In this document: positions 2,928 to 40,961 of the stretch, in pieces
How the letters are laid out: the number at the start of each line of letters is the position of its first letter
How positions within the stretch are numbered: position 1 is the first letter of the stretch
From: Salsipaludibacter albus
GTDB taxonomy: Bacteria; Actinomycetota; Nitriliruptoria; Nitriliruptorales; Nitriliruptoraceae
DNA length: 64,000 nucleotides
NCBI RefSeq assembly: GCF_019798055.1
Contig: NZ_JAHOPH010000003.1
Coordinates: forward strand, 1 to 64,000
Reading direction: 5' to 3'
Notes under the pieces: generated by a model
Seen by the model: only the letters and a program-made list of their open reading frames with translations
The model's database searches: none
What the model was told of the DNA's origin: nothing
Translations under genes and position numbers: made by a program

Positions 2928-5900
2928 ATGACCAGTGCTGCTCGCAGCACCACGCCCAGCACCGGCCCGTCGCGCCACGCCGCGACGCCGGCCGCCCCGC
3001 CGGGTCGTCGTCCGCGGCCCCGCATGCCCGGTGACGGTCGTCCGGTCGCGGACGGTCTGTACGACCCACGCAACGAACACGACGCCTGCGGGGTCTCCTT
3101 CGTCGTCGACATGCACGGTCGCGCCACCCACGAGATGGTCCAGCGTGGCCTGTCGGCGCTGTGCTCGCTCGACCACCGCGGCGCCACCGGCGCCGAGGCC
3201 AACGTCGGCGACGGCGCCGGGATCCTCGTCCAGGTGCCCGACGACTTCCTGCGCGACGAGTTCGGGGGCAACCTCCCGCCGTTCGGGTCCTACGCCGTCG
3301 GCCTGGCGTTCCTGCCACGCGAGCACGTCCCCGACGCCATCAAGGCCGTCGACGAGATCATCGAGGAGGAGGGCCTGCGCACGGTCGCGTGGCGCGACGT
3401 CCCGGTGGACAACTCGGCCATCGGGTCGATGGCCCGCGACATCGAGCCGGCGTTCCGCCACCTGGTCGTGACCGGGCCCGGCCTGTCCGGGATGGACCTC
3501 GAGCGACGAGCGTTCGTGCTGCGCAAGCGCATCGAGCACGAGGTGTCCATCGACACCCCCGACGGTCCCCAGGGGGTCTACTTCCCGTCGCTGTCGACCC
3601 GCACGCTGGTCTACAAGGGCATGCTGACCTCCGAGCAGCTCGGGGACTTCTTCCTCGACCTGCAGGACCGCCGGCTGACCTCCGCGATGGCGCTGGTGCA
3701 CTCGCGCTTCTCCACCAACACCTTCCCGTCGTGGCCCCTGGCCCACCCCTACCGGATGCTGGCCCACAACGGCGAGATCAACACCGTGATGGGCAACCGC
3801 AACTGGATGCATGCCCGCGAGGGCTCGCTGGACTCGAGCCTGTTCGGCACGGGCGCGCTCGACCGGGCCTTCCCGATCATGACGCCGGACGCCTCCGACA
3901 CCGCCAGCTTCGACGAGGCGCTCGAACTGCTGCACCTGGGTGGCCGGTCGCTGCCCCACGCCGTGCTGATGATGATCCCGGAGGCGTGGGAGGCCCACCA
4001 GACGATGCCGACGTGGAAGCGTGACTTCTACGAGTACCACGCCGGCATGATGGAGCCGTGGGACGGTCCGGCCGCGATCGCGTTCACCGACGGCACCGTG
4101 ATCGGCGCGGTCCTGGACCGCAACGGCCTGCGCCCGTCGCGCTACTGGGTCACCGACGACGGCATGGTCGTGATGGCCTCCGAGGTGGGCGTGGTCGACG
4201 TGGACCCGGCCACGGTGGTGCGCAAGGGCCGGCTCCAGCCGGGCCGGATGTTCCTGGTCGACACCGCCCAGGGCCGCATCGTCGAGGACGAGGAGGTCAA
4301 GCGCGACCTGGCCGAGGCCGAGCCCTACGGGCAGTGGCTGTCCGACGGCCTGCTCCACCTCGAGGACCTGCCCGAGCGCACGCTGCTGACCCCCCAGCAC
4401 GCCTCGGTGGTCGGCTTCCAGCGCACCTTCGGCTACACGACCGAGGAGATCAAGGTCCTGCTGGCGCCGATGGCGCGCACCGGCGCCGAGCCGATCGGCT
4501 CGATGGGCACCGACACCCCGGTGGCGGTGCTGTCGGACCGCCCGCGACTGCTGTTCGACTACGTCAAGCAGTTGTTCGCCCAGGTCACCAACCCCCCGCT
4601 GGACGCCATCCGCGAGGAGCTGGTCACGTCCATGGCCGGGACCATCGGCCCGGAGAGCAACCTGCTGGCCGCGGGCCCCGAGCACTGTCGCCAGATCGTG
4701 CTGCCACGGCCGATCCTGACCAACCAGGAGCTCGCCAAGATCCTCTACATGAACGAGGACGGCGAGTACCCGGAGTTCGACTCGTTCGCCGTGGACGGGC
4801 TCTACCCGGTCGACGAGGGCGGCGACGGCATGGCCCGGGCCCTGGAGGACATCTTCGAGCGGGTGTCGGCCGCGATCGACGAGGGCGCCAAGATCATCGT
4901 GCTGTCGGACCGGTACTCCAACGCCGAGCTCGCCCCGATCCCGTCGCTGCTGCTGACCTCTGCGGTGCACCAGCACCTGATCCGGACCCAGCAGCGGACC
5001 AAGGTCGGGCTGGTCATCGAGACCGGCGAGGCCCGCGAAGTGCACCACATGGCGGCCCTGCTGGGCTACGGCGCTGCCGCGATCAACCCCTACCTCGCGT
5101 TCGAGACCTTCCACGTCCTGGTCGAGCAGGGCGTGCTGGCCGACCTCACCCCCGAGGAGGCCAACCACAACTACGTGAAGGGCTGCACCAAGGGCGTGCT
5201 CAAGATCATGTCCAAGATGGGGATCTCGACCGTGGCGTCCTACACCGGCGCGCAGATCTTCGAGGCGGTCGGTCTGTCGCGTGACCTCGTCGACGCCCAC
5301 TTCACCGGCACCACGACCCAGATCGAGGGCATCGGCCTGGACGAGATCGCGGCCGAGGTGGCGCAGCGCCACGCCTTCGCCCACCTGGAGCGCCCGACCG
5401 AGGTCGCCCATCGCGACCTGTGGGTCGGGGGCGAGTACCAGTGGCGCCGCGAGGGGGAGTACCACCTGTTCAACCCCCAGACCGTGTTCAAGCTCCAGCA
5501 CGCCACCCGGCAGGGTCGCTACGACGTCTTCAAGGAGTACACGTCGCTGGTCGACGACCAGTCCGAGCGGTTGGCGACCCTGCGAGGACTGCTGGACTTC
5601 AAGGAGGGCGAGCGCGAGCCGATCCCGATCGACGAGGTCGAGCCGGTCAGCGAGATCGTGAAGCGGTTCTCGACCGGCGCCATGAGCTACGGCTCGATCT
5701 CGGCCGAGGCGCACGAGACCCTGGCCATCGCCATGAACCGGCTGGGGGCCAAGTCCAACACCGGCGAGGGCGGCGAGGACAGCCGCCGGTTCACCCCCGA
5801 CGACAACGGTGACCTGCGTCGCTCGGCCATCAAGCAGGTGGCCTCGGGCCGGTTCGGCGTGACCAGCGAGTACCTGGTCAACGCCGACGACCTGCAGATC

Positions 5901-7595
5901 AAGATGGCCCAGGGCGCCAAGCCCGGCGAGGGTGGCCAGCTGCCGGGCAAGAAGGTCTGGCCGTGGATCGCGCAGACCCGCCACTCGACCCCGGGCGTGG
6001 GCCTGATCTCGCCACCGCCGCACCACGACATCTACTCGATCGAGGACATCAAGCAGCTGATCCACGACCTCAAGAACGCCAACCCGAACGCCCGCGTGCA
6101 CGTCAAGCTGGTCGCCCAGCGAGGCGTCGGCACGGTGGCCGCCGGGGTCTCCAAGGCCAAGTCCGACGTCGTGCTGATCTCGGGCCACGACGGCGGGACC
6201 GGCGCGTCGCCCCTGAACTCGATCAAGCACGCCGGTGGTCCGTGGGAGCTCGGCCTGGCCGAGACCCAGCAGACGCTGCTGCGCAACGGCCTGCGTGACC
6301 GCATCGTGGTCCAGGTCGACGGCCAGCTCAAGACCGGTCGGGACGTGATGATCGCCGCCCTGCTGGGCGCCGAGGAGTTCGGGTTCGCGACCGCGCCGCT
6401 GGTCGTGTCGGGCTGCATCATGATGCGCGTGTGCCACCTCGACACCTGCCCGGTGGGCGTGGCCACCCAGAACCCCGAGCTGCGCCAGCGCTTCAACGGC
6501 AAGGCCGAGTACGTCGTCAACTTCATGACCTACATCGCCGAGGAGGTCCGCGAGCTGATGGCCCGGCTGGGCTTCCGCACGCTCCAGGAGGCCATCGGCC
6601 ACGTCGAGTCGCTGGACGCCACGGCCGCGATCGACCACTGGAAGGCCGACGGGCTCGACCTCGCACCGATCCTGAGCGTGCCGACCTCCCCGTGGGAGCA
6701 GGACCGCTTCTGCAGCAAGGAGCAGGACCACGGGCTGGACCGCGCGCTGGACCAGGAGCTGGTCCGACGGGCCGCGCCGGCCATCGAGCACGGGGCCCGG
6801 GTGACGATGGAGCTGCCGATCGCCAACCGCAACCGCACGGTCGGCACCCTGCTCGGACACCACGTCACGACCGCCACGCGCGGGCTCGGCCTGCCCGACG
6901 ACACCATCGACGTGACCTTCACCGGCTCCGCCGGGCAGAGCTTCGGGGCGTTCCTGCCCAAGGGGATCACGCTGCGGCTGGAGGGCGACGCCAACGACTA
7001 CATCGGCAAGGGCCTGTCGGGTGGACGCCTGGTGATCCGGCCCGCACGCGAGCTGCACCCGGACTTCAAGGCCGAGGAGTCGATCATCGCCGGCAACGTG
7101 ATCGCCTACGGCGCGACCGGTGGCGAGATCTACCTCCGTGGCGAGGTCGGCGAGCGCTTCTGCGTGCGCAACTCCGGCGCCACCGTGGTCGCCGAGGGCG
7201 TCGGGGACCACGCCTGCGAGTACATGACCGGTGGCCGGGCGGTGATCCTGGGCCCGACCGGTCGCAACGTCGGGGCCGGCATGTCCGGTGGCATCGCCTA
7301 CGTCTACGACCCGCGGGGCGTGCTGTTCCGCGAGGTCAACCAGGAGATGGTCAACCTCGAGGCCCCGGAGCCCGAGGACCTCGCGTGGCTGCGCGAGGTC
7401 GTGGCCACCCATGCCGACGAGACCGGCTCGCCACTGGCCACCAGCCTGCTGGCTCGCTGGCACGCGGTGAAGCGTCACTTCCGCAAGGTCATGCCGACCG
7501 ACTACAAGCGTGTCCTGGAGGCGGCCCGCGAGGCCGAGGAGGAAGGTCGCGACGTCGAGGAGGCCATCATGGCCTCGGCGCGGGGTGGCAAGTGA
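2928..7595 (+). CDS. gltB: Glutamate synthase large subunit
   Basis: Transfers the amide of glutamine to 2-oxoglutarate, giving two glutamates; the main ammonium assimilation route together with glutamine synthetase. Domains in order: N-terminal glutamine amidotransferase whose catalytic cysteine is Cys54 in [10 protein letters not shown] (normally exposed by propeptide removal), central domain, FMN-binding synthase domain with [16 protein letters not shown] and [11 protein letters not shown], the 3Fe-4S cysteine set in [13 protein letters not shown], and the C-terminal beta-helix GXGXG domain. At 1555 residues it has the normal length. The ATG at 2928 gives a long basic propeptide; an in-frame ATG at 3024 would shorten it to a typical one. 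gltD follows 43 bp downstream. Confidence 0.97.
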
Positions 7596-37234: not shown

Positions 37235-37843
37235 ATGGCCGACATCGGCATCGTCTACTTCTCCATGTACGGCTCGACCCTCGAGCTCGCCCGCGAGATC
37301 GCCGCAGGCGTCCGCGAGGCTGGGGGCACGGCCCACCTCCGGCGCCTGCCGCACGACCTGCCCGACGACGTCGCCGAGTCCGAGGGCGTGGCCGAGGCGC
37401 AGGACGACCAGGACGACATCCCCTACGCCGAGGTCGAGGAGCTGACCGACTTCGACGGGGTCCTGTTCGGCAGCGGCACCCGCTTCGGCTCGGCCACCGC
37501 CCAGCTCCAGAAGTTCTTCGACCAGTGCGGTCCGCTGTGGGCCGAGGGCGAGCTGATCGGTACCCCGGCCGGGTTCTTCACCGGCGCGGCGACCCTGCAC
37601 GGTGGGCACGAGTCGACGATCCTGTCGATGTCGACCTTCGCCTACCACCAGGGCATGCCGATCGTGCCGATGGGCTACTCGCACGAGGCGACCAACACCA
37701 CCGACACCGGCGGCGGCCCCTACGGCCCGTCGCAGCTGTCACCGCAGGACGGCTCGAAGGACGGGCTGTCCGACGACGAGATCGCCATCGCCCGTGCCTA
37801 CGGCGCGCGCTTCCACGACGTGGCGACGCGACTGGCGGACTGA
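37235..37843 (+). CDS. WrbA-like NAD(P)H:quinone oxidoreductase
   Basis: 202-residue flavodoxin-fold protein. The FMN phosphate loop is YFSMYGSTLELA, followed by FGSGTRFGSATAQLQKFFDQ and the FFTGAATLHGGHESTILSM region characteristic of WrbA. Two-electron quinone reduction protects against redox cycling. The last 46 bases overlap the end of the convergent permease gene. Confidence 0.88.
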   Translation: MADIGIVYFSMYGSTLELAREIAAGVREAGGTAHLRRLPHDLPDDVAESEGVAEAQDDQDDIPYAEVEELTDFDGVLFGSGTRFGSATAQLQKFFDQCGPLWAEGELIGTPAGFFTGAATLHGGHESTILSMSTFAYHQGMPIVPMGYSHEATNTTDTGGGPYGPSQLSPQDGSKDGLSDDEIAIARAYGARFHDVATRLAD

Positions 37844-39348
37844 CGACCGGCGGCATGACGACCGGCCGGCGCCACGACCGTGCGCACCAGTCGGCGGCCG
37901 AGCAGCCAGCCGATCGCGCCACAGGCGACGATGCCTGCCACGGTCGCCGTGGCCAGCACCCCTGGGCTCGTGGCCCACGCCGCGGCGACGGACCAGCCCG
38001 TGGGCACGACGAGCAGGGCCGCGTCCCAGGCCGGTGGCACGAACCCCGCTGCCAGCGGGAGGTACAGCGGCAGCGTGATCGCCTTCAGGAGCGCGATGCC
38101 CTGGACGCGATCGCGGGCGACTGCCGCCAGCACCGTCATCGGGACCAGGGCGCACGTCCCCGCGACCAGCGCCGTCGACAGCGTGCCGACGATGCCCAGC
38201 GGATGCTGTCCTCCGGACAGCGGGAGCCCGATGGCGACCGCGGCGGTCGCCAGCGTCACGACGATCCCCGAGCGCACCGCCAGCAGCGTGACCAGCGACG
38301 CCCGCGTCGTGGCGACGGCCGGCAGCACCCTGGCGTCGCGGTCCTCGCAGAACGCCAGGCCGGCCACGGCGCCCAGCATGACCGGCGTGTGCACGACCAC
38401 CACGAAGGTCCGCGCGAGGTCCATCCAGGGGGTGACGTCCAGCCCGTGACGTGTGGCCAGCCACGTCGCGCCCGGTCCTCCCAGCCACCGCACCGCCAGG
38501 GCGAGCAGCGGCAGCCCGGCCAGCATCGCCAGCACCATCCCGTCGGCCAGGACCGTCTGGCGATCCACCCGCAGCGTCGAGGCGACGGCCCGTCGACGCC
38601 AGGTCGTGCCACGGACGCCCGTGGTTGTCGTGGCCCGACGTGTCCGCGCCTCGGACCGCCGCGGCGCCGCGCCCGCAGACGGGTCACCGACCGCGTCGGC
38701 CTGCCGACGGGCCAGGGCACCCAGCACCACGACCCAGGCAAGGATCCAGGCGACGGCCGTCCACGACCAGCGGCCGAGCAGCAGGTCCAGTCCCCCGGTG
38801 AACGGTGACAGGGCGAGCACCGGCGCGTCCCACAGGCCGACGCCTCGTACCAGGGCCGGCACCAGCAGCGGGACGGCGAGCAGGGGCAGGCGTGCCATCC
38901 ACGTCGTCAATGACGCCTGCCGCCCCAGCGCCACCAGCCCGAGCAGGGAGGCGAGCACGCTGACGAGGACGACAGCGACCAGCACCGGTCCGCCCCTCGA
39001 CGGGCCGGGCACCGACAGGACCACGACGGCGGCCAGCGCCGACCCGACCGCCACGACGGCGACACGGACGGCCACGGCCGTGGCGGGCGACAGCCGGGTC
39101 AGGGCGAGCGCGGACGGGATGCCGTTGCCACGCTCGACCACGGTCATCGCCGGCACCACGAACACCCCGATCGCCGCGACGTCGAGGAACAGGATCCAGC
39201 CCACCAGCGTCGGACGAACCGTGGTGGGAACGGCCAGCAACACCACGGCCCACGCCGCGGTCACGGCCGCGGTCGCCGCGACGACCCCGTGGCGTCGCTG
39301 GAGGGCCAGCTCGGTCCGCACCAGGGCAGCCGCCCGCGTGGAGGTCAC
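37798..39348 (-). CDS. ABC-2 type exporter permease, apparently two fused subunits
   Basis: 516 residues with about twelve transmembrane helices in two blocks separated by an Arg/Thr-rich linker at roughly residues 225-255. The first block (LVRTELALQRRHGVVAA, then TVRPTLVGWILFLDVAAIG) recalls mycobacterial Rv2687c and the second its partner Rv2686c, the two permeases of a fluoroquinolone exporter. The GTG at 39348 overlaps the ATPase stop (GTGA). Predicted to form the membrane part of a drug or lipid exporter with the upstream ATPase, under the TetR gene. Confidence 0.8.
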   Translation of the reverse strand: MTSTRAAALVRTELALQRRHGVVAATAAVTAAWAVVLLAVPTTVRPTLVGWILFLDVAAIGVFVVPAMTVVERGNGIPSALALTRLSPATAVAVRVAVVAVGSALAAVVVLSVPGPSRGGPVLVAVVLVSVLASLLGLVALGRQASLTTWMARLPLLAVPLLVPALVRGVGLWDAPVLALSPFTGGLDLLLGRWSWTAVAWILAWVVVLGALARRQADAVGDPSAGAAPRRSEARTRRATTTTGVRGTTWRRRAVASTLRVDRQTVLADGMVLAMLAGLPLLALAVRWLGGPGATWLATRHGLDVTPWMDLARTFVVVVHTPVMLGAVAGLAFCEDRDARVLPAVATTRASLVTLLAVRSGIVVTLATAAVAIGLPLSGGQHPLGIVGTLSTALVAGTCALVPMTVLAAVARDRVQGIALLKAITLPLYLPLAAGFVPPAWDAALLVVPTGWSVAAAWATSPGVLATATVAGIVACGAIGWLLGRRLVRTVVAPAGRHAAGRQSASRVATSWKRAP

Positions 39349-40202
39349 AGCGCCCGTCCCGTGAGGTCGACGAACACCCGGTCGAGGGTGGCCTCGTTGG
39401 TGGAGACGGACTCGACGGTGCCGGAGGCCAGCACCTCGGCCAGGCCGGGTCCGGGGTCGGGCAGTCGGTAGGTCGTCGTGGCCAGCCTGCCGTCGACCCG
39501 GTGCTCGACCTCCAGGGTCGCCTCGCCGTGCGCCCGTCGCAGGGTCCGCGGACGGTCGCAGGCCACGATGCGTCCGTCGACGACGAACGCGACCCGGTCG
39601 CACAGGGCGTCGGCCGTGGCCATGTCGTGGGTGGTGAGGACGACCGTGGCGCCCTCGTCCCGGGCGTCGCGGACCAGGTCCCGGACGGCGGCGACGTTGA
39701 CCGGGTCGAGCCCACCGGTCGGCTCGTCGAGGAACAGCAGGTCGGGTCGGTGCAGCATGGCGCGCGCGAGGTTCAGCCGGGTGCGCATCCCACGCGACCA
39801 GGTCCCCACGGGCAGGTCCGCCACGTCGGCCAGGCCGACCCGGGCGAACAGTTCGTCGAGGTCCCGTGCGGGCCGGTCGTGCAGGGCGGCGAAGTGGACC
39901 AGGTCCTCGCGCCCGGTCAGTCGGGGCCAGCCGACCGGGAGCTCGAACGACACCCCGATCCGGTCGTACAGCGCCGGGCCCCAGTCCCCGAGCGGCCGTC
40001 CGAGCACCTCGACCCGTCCCGTCCAGCCGTGGACCAGCCCGGTGAGGATCTGCTGGGTGGTGGTCTTGCCGGCGCCGCTGGGACCCAGGAGCCCGAACAC
40101 CTCGCCCTCGGCCACGGTGAAGTCCATCCCGTCGACGGCGTTGCGCGCGCGTCCCGGCCACCGGTGGGCGAGGTCGTCGACGACGATCGTCAGGCCGTCC
40201 AC
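39345..40202 (-). CDS. ABC exporter ATPase
   Basis: 285 residues: Walker A GPSGAGKTT, signature-region GTWSRGMRTRLNLARA (SRGM in place of LSGG), Walker B LLFLDEPTGGLDP and the switch His in TTHD. Closest in type to drug-export ATPases of the Rv2688c kind. The GTG at 40202 lies inside the end of tetR (13-base overlap), and its stop overlaps the permease start, so the three genes form one coupled operon. Confidence 0.9.
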   Translation of the reverse strand: MDGLTIVVDDLAHRWPGRARNAVDGMDFTVAEGEVFGLLGPSGAGKTTTQQILTGLVHGWTGRVEVLGRPLGDWGPALYDRIGVSFELPVGWPRLTGREDLVHFAALHDRPARDLDELFARVGLADVADLPVGTWSRGMRTRLNLARAMLHRPDLLFLDEPTGGLDPVNVAAVRDLVRDARDEGATVVLTTHDMATADALCDRVAFVVDGRIVACDRPRTLRRAHGEATLEVEHRVDGRLATTTYRLPDPGPGLAEVLASGTVESVSTNEATLDRVFVDLTGRAL

Positions 40203-40768
40203 GCCACGACCTCCAGGCTGGCGAACGCCGCGGTCACCACGTCGGCCAGCGACTCCCGACCGTCCTGGCGCTGCCAGGTGTCGAGCGCGGCCCGCAGCAC
40301 GCCCACGGCGACCACGGCCCACACCCGCCGTCGGGCGTCGTCGTCGCCCATCCCCGCGTCGGCGTACAGGCCGGCCAGCGCCTCCTCCATGGCCGTCGTG
40401 CCGTGGGTCGCGGCGGCACGAAGGGCGGGCTCGGCGTGGATGAGGCGGGTGCGGGCCAGGACCAGTTCCCGGTCCCGGTCGTAGACCACGTCCAGCTCCT
40501 CGACGACCCCGTCGCGCACCGCCCCCAGGGGGCCGCGGTCGCCCAGGTGGCGGGCGATGGCCGCCAGCAGTGGCGGGTCGTAGTCGTCCCACAGGACCAG
40601 CGCCTCCTTGGTCCCGAACCAGCGGTAGACCGACACCGGCGACACCCCGGCCGTGGTGGCCACCCGCTCGACGGGCACGGCGTCGAAGCCGTGGGTGGTG
40701 AACAGCTCGACCGCCTGCTGCTGCACGACCTTCATGTCCGCCAGCCGGCGCCGCGTCCGCACGTCCAT
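40190..40768 (-). CDS. TetR-family regulator of the ABC exporter
   Basis: 192 residues with a TetR DNA-binding domain (ELFTTHGFDAVPVERVATTA, then SPVSVYRWFGTKEALV). First gene of the exporter operon; the ABC ATPase start overlaps its last codons. Two direct AGTCACT repeats upstream (40818-40842) are likely its operator, so exporter and regulator are probably induced together by a drug or lipid ligand. Confidence 0.9.
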   Translation of the reverse strand: MDVRTRRRLADMKVVQQQAVELFTTHGFDAVPVERVATTAGVSPVSVYRWFGTKEALVLWDDYDPPLLAAIARHLGDRGPLGAVRDGVVEELDVVYDRDRELVLARTRLIHAEPALRAAATHGTTAMEEALAGLYADAGMGDDDARRRVWAVVAVGVLRAALDTWQRQDGRESLADVVTAAFASLEVVAWTA

Positions 40769-40817
40769 TCTTCGTCCTCGCGTCGAGTTCCTCCTTCGGG
40801 AGTGTCTCCTGTGAGAT

Positions 40818-40842
40818 AGTCACTGTCAAGAAGAAAGTCACT
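40818..40842. promoter_or_regulatory. Operator with two AGTCACT repeats
   Basis: AGTCACT occurs at 40818-40824 and 40836-40842, 18 bp apart, around a minus-strand TTGACA. It lies 50-75 bases upstream of tetR. Confidence 0.55.
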
Positions 40843-40961
40843 TTCATTATTGGGAGGTGGGTCTGCGTGCCGGCGGCCCGTTGACGGTCCGAAGCGGCGA
40901 CTCGTAGGCTCGATCGCCGGTGGGGGAGTCCCGCCGTCGTCCACCTCCAAGGACCCCAACC

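Follow-up and report, generated by a model that had tools for sequence, protein, structure and literature searches.

Among the described systems closest to the locus reported here is the Rv2686c–Rv2687c–Rv2688c operon of Mycobacterium tuberculosis, to which fluoroquinolone export is attributed in excerpts of PMC8829022 and PMC6300501. According to the excerpt of PMC6300501, Rv2686c and Rv2687c contain six segments each and Rv2688c is the nucleotide-binding domain, whereas the excerpt of PMC8829022 names Rv2686c as the ATPase; the two sources disagree on this point. The split-type permease pair is described as a heteromeric complex in the excerpt of PMC8829022, and a table in a third review gives the M. 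tuberculosis pump as TM1/TM2 plus two ATPases. The excerpt of PMC8829022 further states that the only efflux study of the M. tuberculosis pump was performed without an inactive-mutant control and that deletion of the M. smegmatis homologue left drug sensitivity unchanged; the drug role of the family is therefore not settled.

A second group of exporters has a single permease chain. The PDB entries 8k1m–8k1p, a mycobacterial efflux pump, contain Rv1218c as the ATPase. Their one permease chain (509–530 residues in the model) is separate from the ATPase, and we take it to be Rv1217c; TnrB3 and NarB are presumably 12-helix proteins of the same kind. The polyether ionophore exporters TnrB2/TnrB3 and NarAB are described as consisting of an ATPase and one permease subunit, and the Rv1217c–Rv1218c operon is said to have a TetR-like regulator (Rv1219c). 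In full transporters of the ABCA and Pdr5/Cdr1 types, two unlike ABC-2 membrane halves are also found in a single chain, but this chain includes the ATPases, which are separate in the locus described below.

Gene organization of the locus

The window, i.e., the whole stretch of 64,000 nucleotides of DNA from Salsipaludibacter albus (Nitriliruptoraceae) analyzed in this study (contig NZ_JAHOPH010000003.1), belongs to a high-GC draft genome of 4.2 Mb in 79 contigs. On its minus strand, a TetR regulator gene, an ABC ATPase gene, and a permease gene follow one another in this order (Table 1). The TetR gene overlaps the ATPase start by 13 bases, and the permease start overlaps the ATPase stop by four (GTGA). 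Without their stop codons (39345–39347 and 37798–37800), the ATPase frame spans 39348–40202 and the permease frame spans 37801–39348 (516 codons, GTG start). The presence of one fused permease gene in the window was confirmed, and the predicted composition of this single 516-residue gene, two six-helix halves, was borne out by the ORF, the hydropathy, and an AlphaFold model.

Table 1. Features of the exporter locus in the window
Feature	Position	Strand	Basis
TetR-family regulator, MftR-like C-terminal domain	40190..40768	-	Pfam PF00440 (2.8e-12) and PF17754 (6.9e-14); coordinates
ABC ATPase (NBD), 285 aa, GTG start, Walker A GPSGAGKT, signature WSRGM	39345..40202	-	PF00005 (2e-26)
SRGM of the ABC signature, ATPase residues 136–139	39786..39797	-	Alignment of 18 family ATPases
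Fused permease, 516 aa, GTG start within the ATPase stop	37798..39348	-	ORF coordinates; AlphaFold pLDDT 90.8, pTM 0.88
Permease N half, residues 1–215 (cut used for profiles), six predicted membrane helices, assigned to the Rv2687c type (first permease gene)	38704..39348	-	PF24686; profile match; published peptides
Permease linker, ~residues 216–251 (217–252 by domain bounds), arginine-rich, low model confidence, sequence not conserved	38596..38703	-	
Permease C half, residues 252–516, six predicted membrane helices, assigned to the Rv2686c type (second permease gene), then a ~25-residue low-confidence tail	37801..38595	-	Profile match

The locus shares with Rv2686c–Rv2687c–Rv2688c and its mycobacterial relatives the ATPase family, the gene order, the four-base overlap of the ATPase and first permease genes, and one permease corresponding to each half. 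It differs in having one gene with a linker of ~36 residues in place of two permease genes, SRGM in place of SKGM in the ATPase, and an in-line TetR gene; no TetR gene was found alongside the four mycobacterial-type loci L070–L073. Three separate genes are not present here because the permeases are fused, and the locus is thus, as judged from its sequence, a fused variant and not a standard member of the Rv2686c–Rv2687c–Rv2688c type.

At its 3′ end, the permease gene shares 46 bases (37798–37843) tail to tail with a convergent plus-strand gene that is flavodoxin-like (WrbA-like, by eye). In the alignment, the C-terminal tail of the permease (~20 residues) is mostly missing from the seven full-length relatives of the same class, and a long C-terminal tail is likewise found in the Acidimicrobiia relative L075.

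Identity of the two permease halves

The only Pfam match of the permease was PF24686 (fluoroquinolone export permease; FLQE3_permease) at residues 5–195 of the N half. In the protein scan, this match scored 58 bits (E value of 1.5e-15), just below the cut-off of 60; in the genome scan, it scored 61.6 bits, above the cut-off. To compare the halves by profiles, eight fused proteins (the window protein and seven relatives of its class) were cut in two and set against ten first and nine second split permeases. The N half matched the split first permease with an E value of 1.7e-37, and the C half matched the split second permease with 3.9e-48. The cross pairs gave only 1.8e-6 and 6.4e-6, the two halves matched each other with 3.9e-5, and the split first and second permeases matched each other with 1.1e-9. 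Since each half is nearest to its own split counterpart, the profiles identify the halves as old, unlike paralogues joined in operon order. Two different six-helix permeases, as indicated by the profiles and the model, are each matched by their own half of the window protein.

The two types were named using five nine-residue M. tuberculosis peptides printed in PMC4582945; M. tuberculosis itself is not among the loci. Counting best matches of 7 or more of the 9 residues, the two Rv2687c peptides were found in 34/71 and 33/71 first permeases and in none of the 71 second permeases, and the three Rv2686c peptides were found in 48/71, 41/71, and 51/71 second permeases and in none of the 71 first permeases. 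On the window halves, the same peptides matched 4–5 of 9 residues in either half and did not discriminate between them; the naming therefore runs through the split relatives, by which the N half would be of the Rv2687c type and the C half of the Rv2686c type. By the same printed peptides, PF24686 matches the Rv2687c-type, first permease gene. The peptides fit Rv2686c and Rv2687c as permeases, in agreement with the excerpt of PMC6300501 and in contradiction to that of PMC8829022. As originally predicted, the two halves stand in for two separate permeases of the Rv2686c/Rv2687c type; the profiles and, via the split relatives, the peptides also show that the operon order is kept. A match of both halves to the same subunit was not seen: the N half went to the first and the C half to the second split permease.

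Signature motif of the ATPase

The SRGM motif, in place of the usual LSGG, had been regarded as an oddity of this ATPase. In the alignment of 18 family ATPases, SKGM was found in 17, and SRGM was found in the window alone. The contrast with LSGG thus characterizes the family and not the window gene, and SRGM was rejected as an unusual signature, being one conservative K-to-R change from the family motif. The window ATPase is 39–62% identical to the 17 other family members and 50–51% identical to four mycobacterial-type ATPases. It belongs to the same subfamily with the S-K/R-G-M signature, and its gene lies upstream of and overlaps the first permease. Among solved structures, the best sequence matches of the ATPase were ABCA lipid transporters, followed by NosF.

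Predicted structure of the permease

The AlphaFold model of the permease, built on an alignment of 49 sequences, had a mean pLDDT of 90.8 and a pTM of 0.88. In the model, each half consists of six membrane helices and a leading helix (residues 2–19 and 249–268), and the hydropathy is consistent with this number; confidence was low in the linker (~220–250) and the last ~25 residues. The permease is thus modeled as 6 + 6 helices in one ABC-2 pseudo-dimer. The linker was 21–69 residues long in 21 fused proteins, with basic residues outnumbering acidic ones in each, and its sequence was not conserved. These features fit a cytoplasmic strap that would lead from the inside C terminus of the N half to the inside N terminus of the C half.

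In a Foldseek search of the PDB, the top solved matches were chains of the mycobacterial efflux pump, led by 8k1o_A (E value of 1.1e-3, TM 0.59); no PDB match reached an E value of 0.001. A second fold comparison aligned 437 residues of 8k1o_A, spanning model residues 1–493, with a Z score of 19.8, 4.3 Å, and 14% identity. Pdr5, ABCG1, and NosY halves were within one Z unit of this pump and are regarded as tied with it; fold matches of the ABCA and Pdr5/Cdr1 types had Z scores of 17–20 over 435–482 residues. In sequence searches of the PDB (phmmer and profile, up to an E value of 10), the permease chain of the mycobacterial pump was not found, and the only matches, at E values of 0.66–1.7, were all unrelated proteins. 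According to the model, the ABC-2 permease of the locus is a single 12-helix chain, and its ATPase is separate, as in Rv1217c–Rv1218c; the window permease probably works like the solved one-chain pump. The Rv1217c-type pump and the window permease most likely represent separate families and separate fusions.

The fixed pairing of two unlike halves had also been considered unusual. This did not hold up: the two permease genes of the split relatives, which mostly overlap, already encode different proteins, and the solved 8k1m–8k1p structures provide an example of an ABC-2 permease in one chain beside a separate ATPase. The original prediction was right about the unlike halves and their partners and wrong about the oddity of SRGM and of the pairing. 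The exporter family and, from another pump, the one-chain layout are already known, and the locus is not a new kind of system. It remains of interest that the fusion seems to have recurred and that, in a little-studied family to which a tuberculosis drug exporter belongs, the pairing of the permeases can be read directly from the fused form. Since both partners are part of one polypeptide in this form, structural and transport work would be easier with the purified fused protein.

Distribution of fused and split permeases

Among 66 genomes of the class, 14 have the permease; in nine it is fused, including G052, where the N half is truncated, and in five it is split. The class contains seven further full-length one-frame homologues, which are 34–49% identical to the window permease. 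Genome contigs were also scanned with the C-terminal part of the ATPase, and of the 194 relatives obtained, the 80 most similar to the window ATPase were kept as named loci: 16 fused, 61 split, one odd, and two partial. Because the 80 were chosen by this similarity, 16/80 is not a frequency. Three of the 80 (L076 and L077, both fused, and L094) are copies of class genomes. Among the 16 fused loci, the N half of L140 lies partly in another frame, and L137 is broken off at a contig end.

Within the class genomes and these best 80 relatives, the fused form was seen in Nitriliruptoria, an Acidimicrobiia genome, Nocardiopsidaceae, Micromonosporaceae, and Pseudonocardiaceae. Split forms, with the ATPase gene followed by two permease genes, were found among the best 80 in the actinobacterial families Mycobacteriaceae, other Pseudonocardiaceae, and Propionibacteriaceae and, outside actinobacteria, in Pseudomonadota, Myxococcota, Calditrichota, and an Acidobacteria genome, where the second permease is in two frames. 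In an even sample of 396 phylum genomes, PF24686 was detected at the cut-off in 13 and at an E value of 0.001 in 46. In plasmid records, searches with the window permease (at 1e-3) and with a Nocardiopsidaceae relative (at 1e-5) found nothing. A fused Rv2686c/Rv2687c permease was not found among the listed titles and abstract beginnings of open-licence papers, which is weak evidence of absence. In the truncated copy of G052 (L066, oriented 4656–6276), the ATPase match ends at about residue 235 and the permease match starts in another frame at about residue 164, which represents a deletion across the ATPase–permease joint or a misassembly.

Origin of the fusion

The main tree was built from the ATPase and both permease domains of 47 of the 99 classified loci, after removal of copies, of loci that were truncated or odd, and of most split loci from mycobacteria. 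The fused/split label required three changes on this tree and on its bootstrap trees. Nine fused rows including the window form clade A (support 100/99), and ten fused rows form clade B (97/91), whose sister is the split L063. L064 is a lone fused row beside the split L062, L058, and L059 (95/85). In a second tree of 44 loci, from which L068, L069, and L081 were removed as long branches, the label again needed three changes, and the same number was obtained with the ATPase alone and with the second permease alone. When high-support branches alone were considered, three changes were forced in the 47-row tree and two in the 44-row and single-gene trees. Grouping every fused row into one clade was rejected on the 44-locus tree (p-AU 4e-73), and the union of clades A and B without L063 was rejected more weakly (p 0.017); the groups for these tests were chosen after the tree was seen. 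The suggested survey of the fusion in Actinomycetota thus yielded several fused groups, three label changes, and rejection of one all-fused clade.

The tree alone does not decide between gains and losses, and the placement of L068, a split locus adjoining clade A on a very long branch of the 47-row tree, is not trusted. With L068, three gains are the cheapest solution; without it, three gains, two gains plus one loss, and one gain plus two losses are equally costly. In the split L062 and L058, the permease genes still overlap by four bases, as they do in most mycobacterial loci, and the second permease starts at an identical alignment position in L063, L062, and the mycobacterial genes. These shared features favor gains, since later resplitting would have to recreate them. 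The split copies of G023 and G028, which belong to the same family as the window genome, sit in another part of the tree and are therefore not recent splits of the window gene.

Overlaps were counted in 75 of the 80 named loci (without L091, L097, L110, L123, and L141), taking as the start codon the one nearest to the previous stop, which favors overlap. The first permease can start in a four-base overlap with the ATPase stop in 72 of these 75, and the second permease can start in an overlap with the first in 47/59 split loci. The split subunits are probably already coupled in translation. As the overlap places the two permeases in different frames, fusion would require both an indel and removal of the stop codon. 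The fusion probably occurred more than once in actinobacteria. On balance, we lean toward a scenario with at least two and probably three independent fusions (clade A, clade B, and one Nitriliruptoria genome), a similar one-chain pump having arisen in the unrelated Rv1217c family. The four-base coupling would have paved the way, and joining the subunits would have been favored because the mixed dimer alone would be functional. Provided that the fusions are independent, the family offers a natural test of why two unlike subunits become locked into one chain in bacterial exporters.

Proposed function and alternative explanations

Here, we propose that the window encodes a three-gene operon (TetR repressor, ABC-2 ATPase, and permease) that is a fused version of the Rv2686c–Rv2687c–Rv2688c-type exporter, whose 12-helix chain works with two ATPases to export a small amphipathic compound; we consider this very likely. 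The direct basis consists of the gene layout, the half-to-subunit match, the predicted fold, and the relatives, and from these we infer the stoichiometry, export direction, type of substrate, and repression as follows. One permease chain would assemble with two copies of the ATPase, and its Rv2687c-type N half and Rv2686c-type C half would form a pseudo-dimeric pore via the short cytoplasmic linker. The pore would be switched by ATP binding and hydrolysis and would expel from the cell a small amphipathic compound, which is probably a drug or a toxin of natural origin. Binding of such a compound to the TetR protein would release the operon.

Several other explanations of the fused gene were considered. 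The halves are distantly related to each other (3.9e-5, compared with 1.1e-9 for the split first and second permeases), as ABC-2 subunits are, and this might be expected if one six-helix permease had been doubled and its halves had drifted within the gene. The profile comparison rules out such an internal duplication, to which we assign a negligible probability, because each half is far nearer to its own split counterpart and the divergence predates the fusion. Joining of two genes by a sequencing or assembly slip is suggested by the high-GC draft assembly in 79 contigs and by the four-base overlap of the frames in most split relatives, which a single indel could join. Against an artefact or a chance open frame, one frame runs through both halves in 16/80 named loci and in 9/14 permease-bearing class genomes (one with a truncated N half). 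In addition, the gap between the domain matches is 40–184 bases in 25 fused loci compared with 0–63 in split loci, except for the odd L123, indicating that the fused genes carry an added linker. The many fused relatives led us to reject this explanation as extremely improbable. It is also quite unlikely that the fused gene is a one-chain permease of the Rv1217c/TnrB3 kind instead of the Rv2686c–Rv2687c kind. That kind provides the top-ranked fold match and, by the description of the operon with Rv1219c, the same layout of TetR regulator, ATPase, and permease, but it gave no sequence match up to an E value of 10 with single sequences or profiles and only 14% identity on structural alignment, whereas the split permeases matched at 1e-37 and 1e-48.

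The preferred reading, a fused drug or toxin exporter, is less secure with respect to the substrate. A physiological lipid or metabolite exporter is possible but less likely. The ABCA lipid transporters and NosF are the best solved sequence matches of the ATPase; however, these matches show kinship of the ATPase only, and the operon has a TetR regulator. TetR regulators are common in drug-responsive operons. In favor of a physiological substrate, the excerpt of PMC8829022 indicates that overexpression is the basis on which the family has been assigned a drug role.

Regulatory genes near fused and split loci

A TetR gene was found within 450 bases of the ATPase in 20/25 fused loci (17 in line and three divergent) and in 9/71 split loci (seven in line, with E values of 3e-8 or worse, and two divergent). 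For two split loci, too little upstream sequence was present for this count, and the profile, made from window-like TetR proteins, may miss other regulators. An inverted-repeat scan of 40760–40930 with arms of at least 7 bases found no operator. By eye, the region upstream of the TetR gene contains the motif GTGAGATAGTCAC (40811–40823) and two copies of AGTCACT (40818–40824 and 40836–40842), a possible operator. In the mycobacterial-type split locus L070, a divergent gene (5303–6181, plus strand) for a regulator that is MarR/GbsR-like by eye takes the place where most fused loci have the TetR gene, which suggests a swapped regulator.
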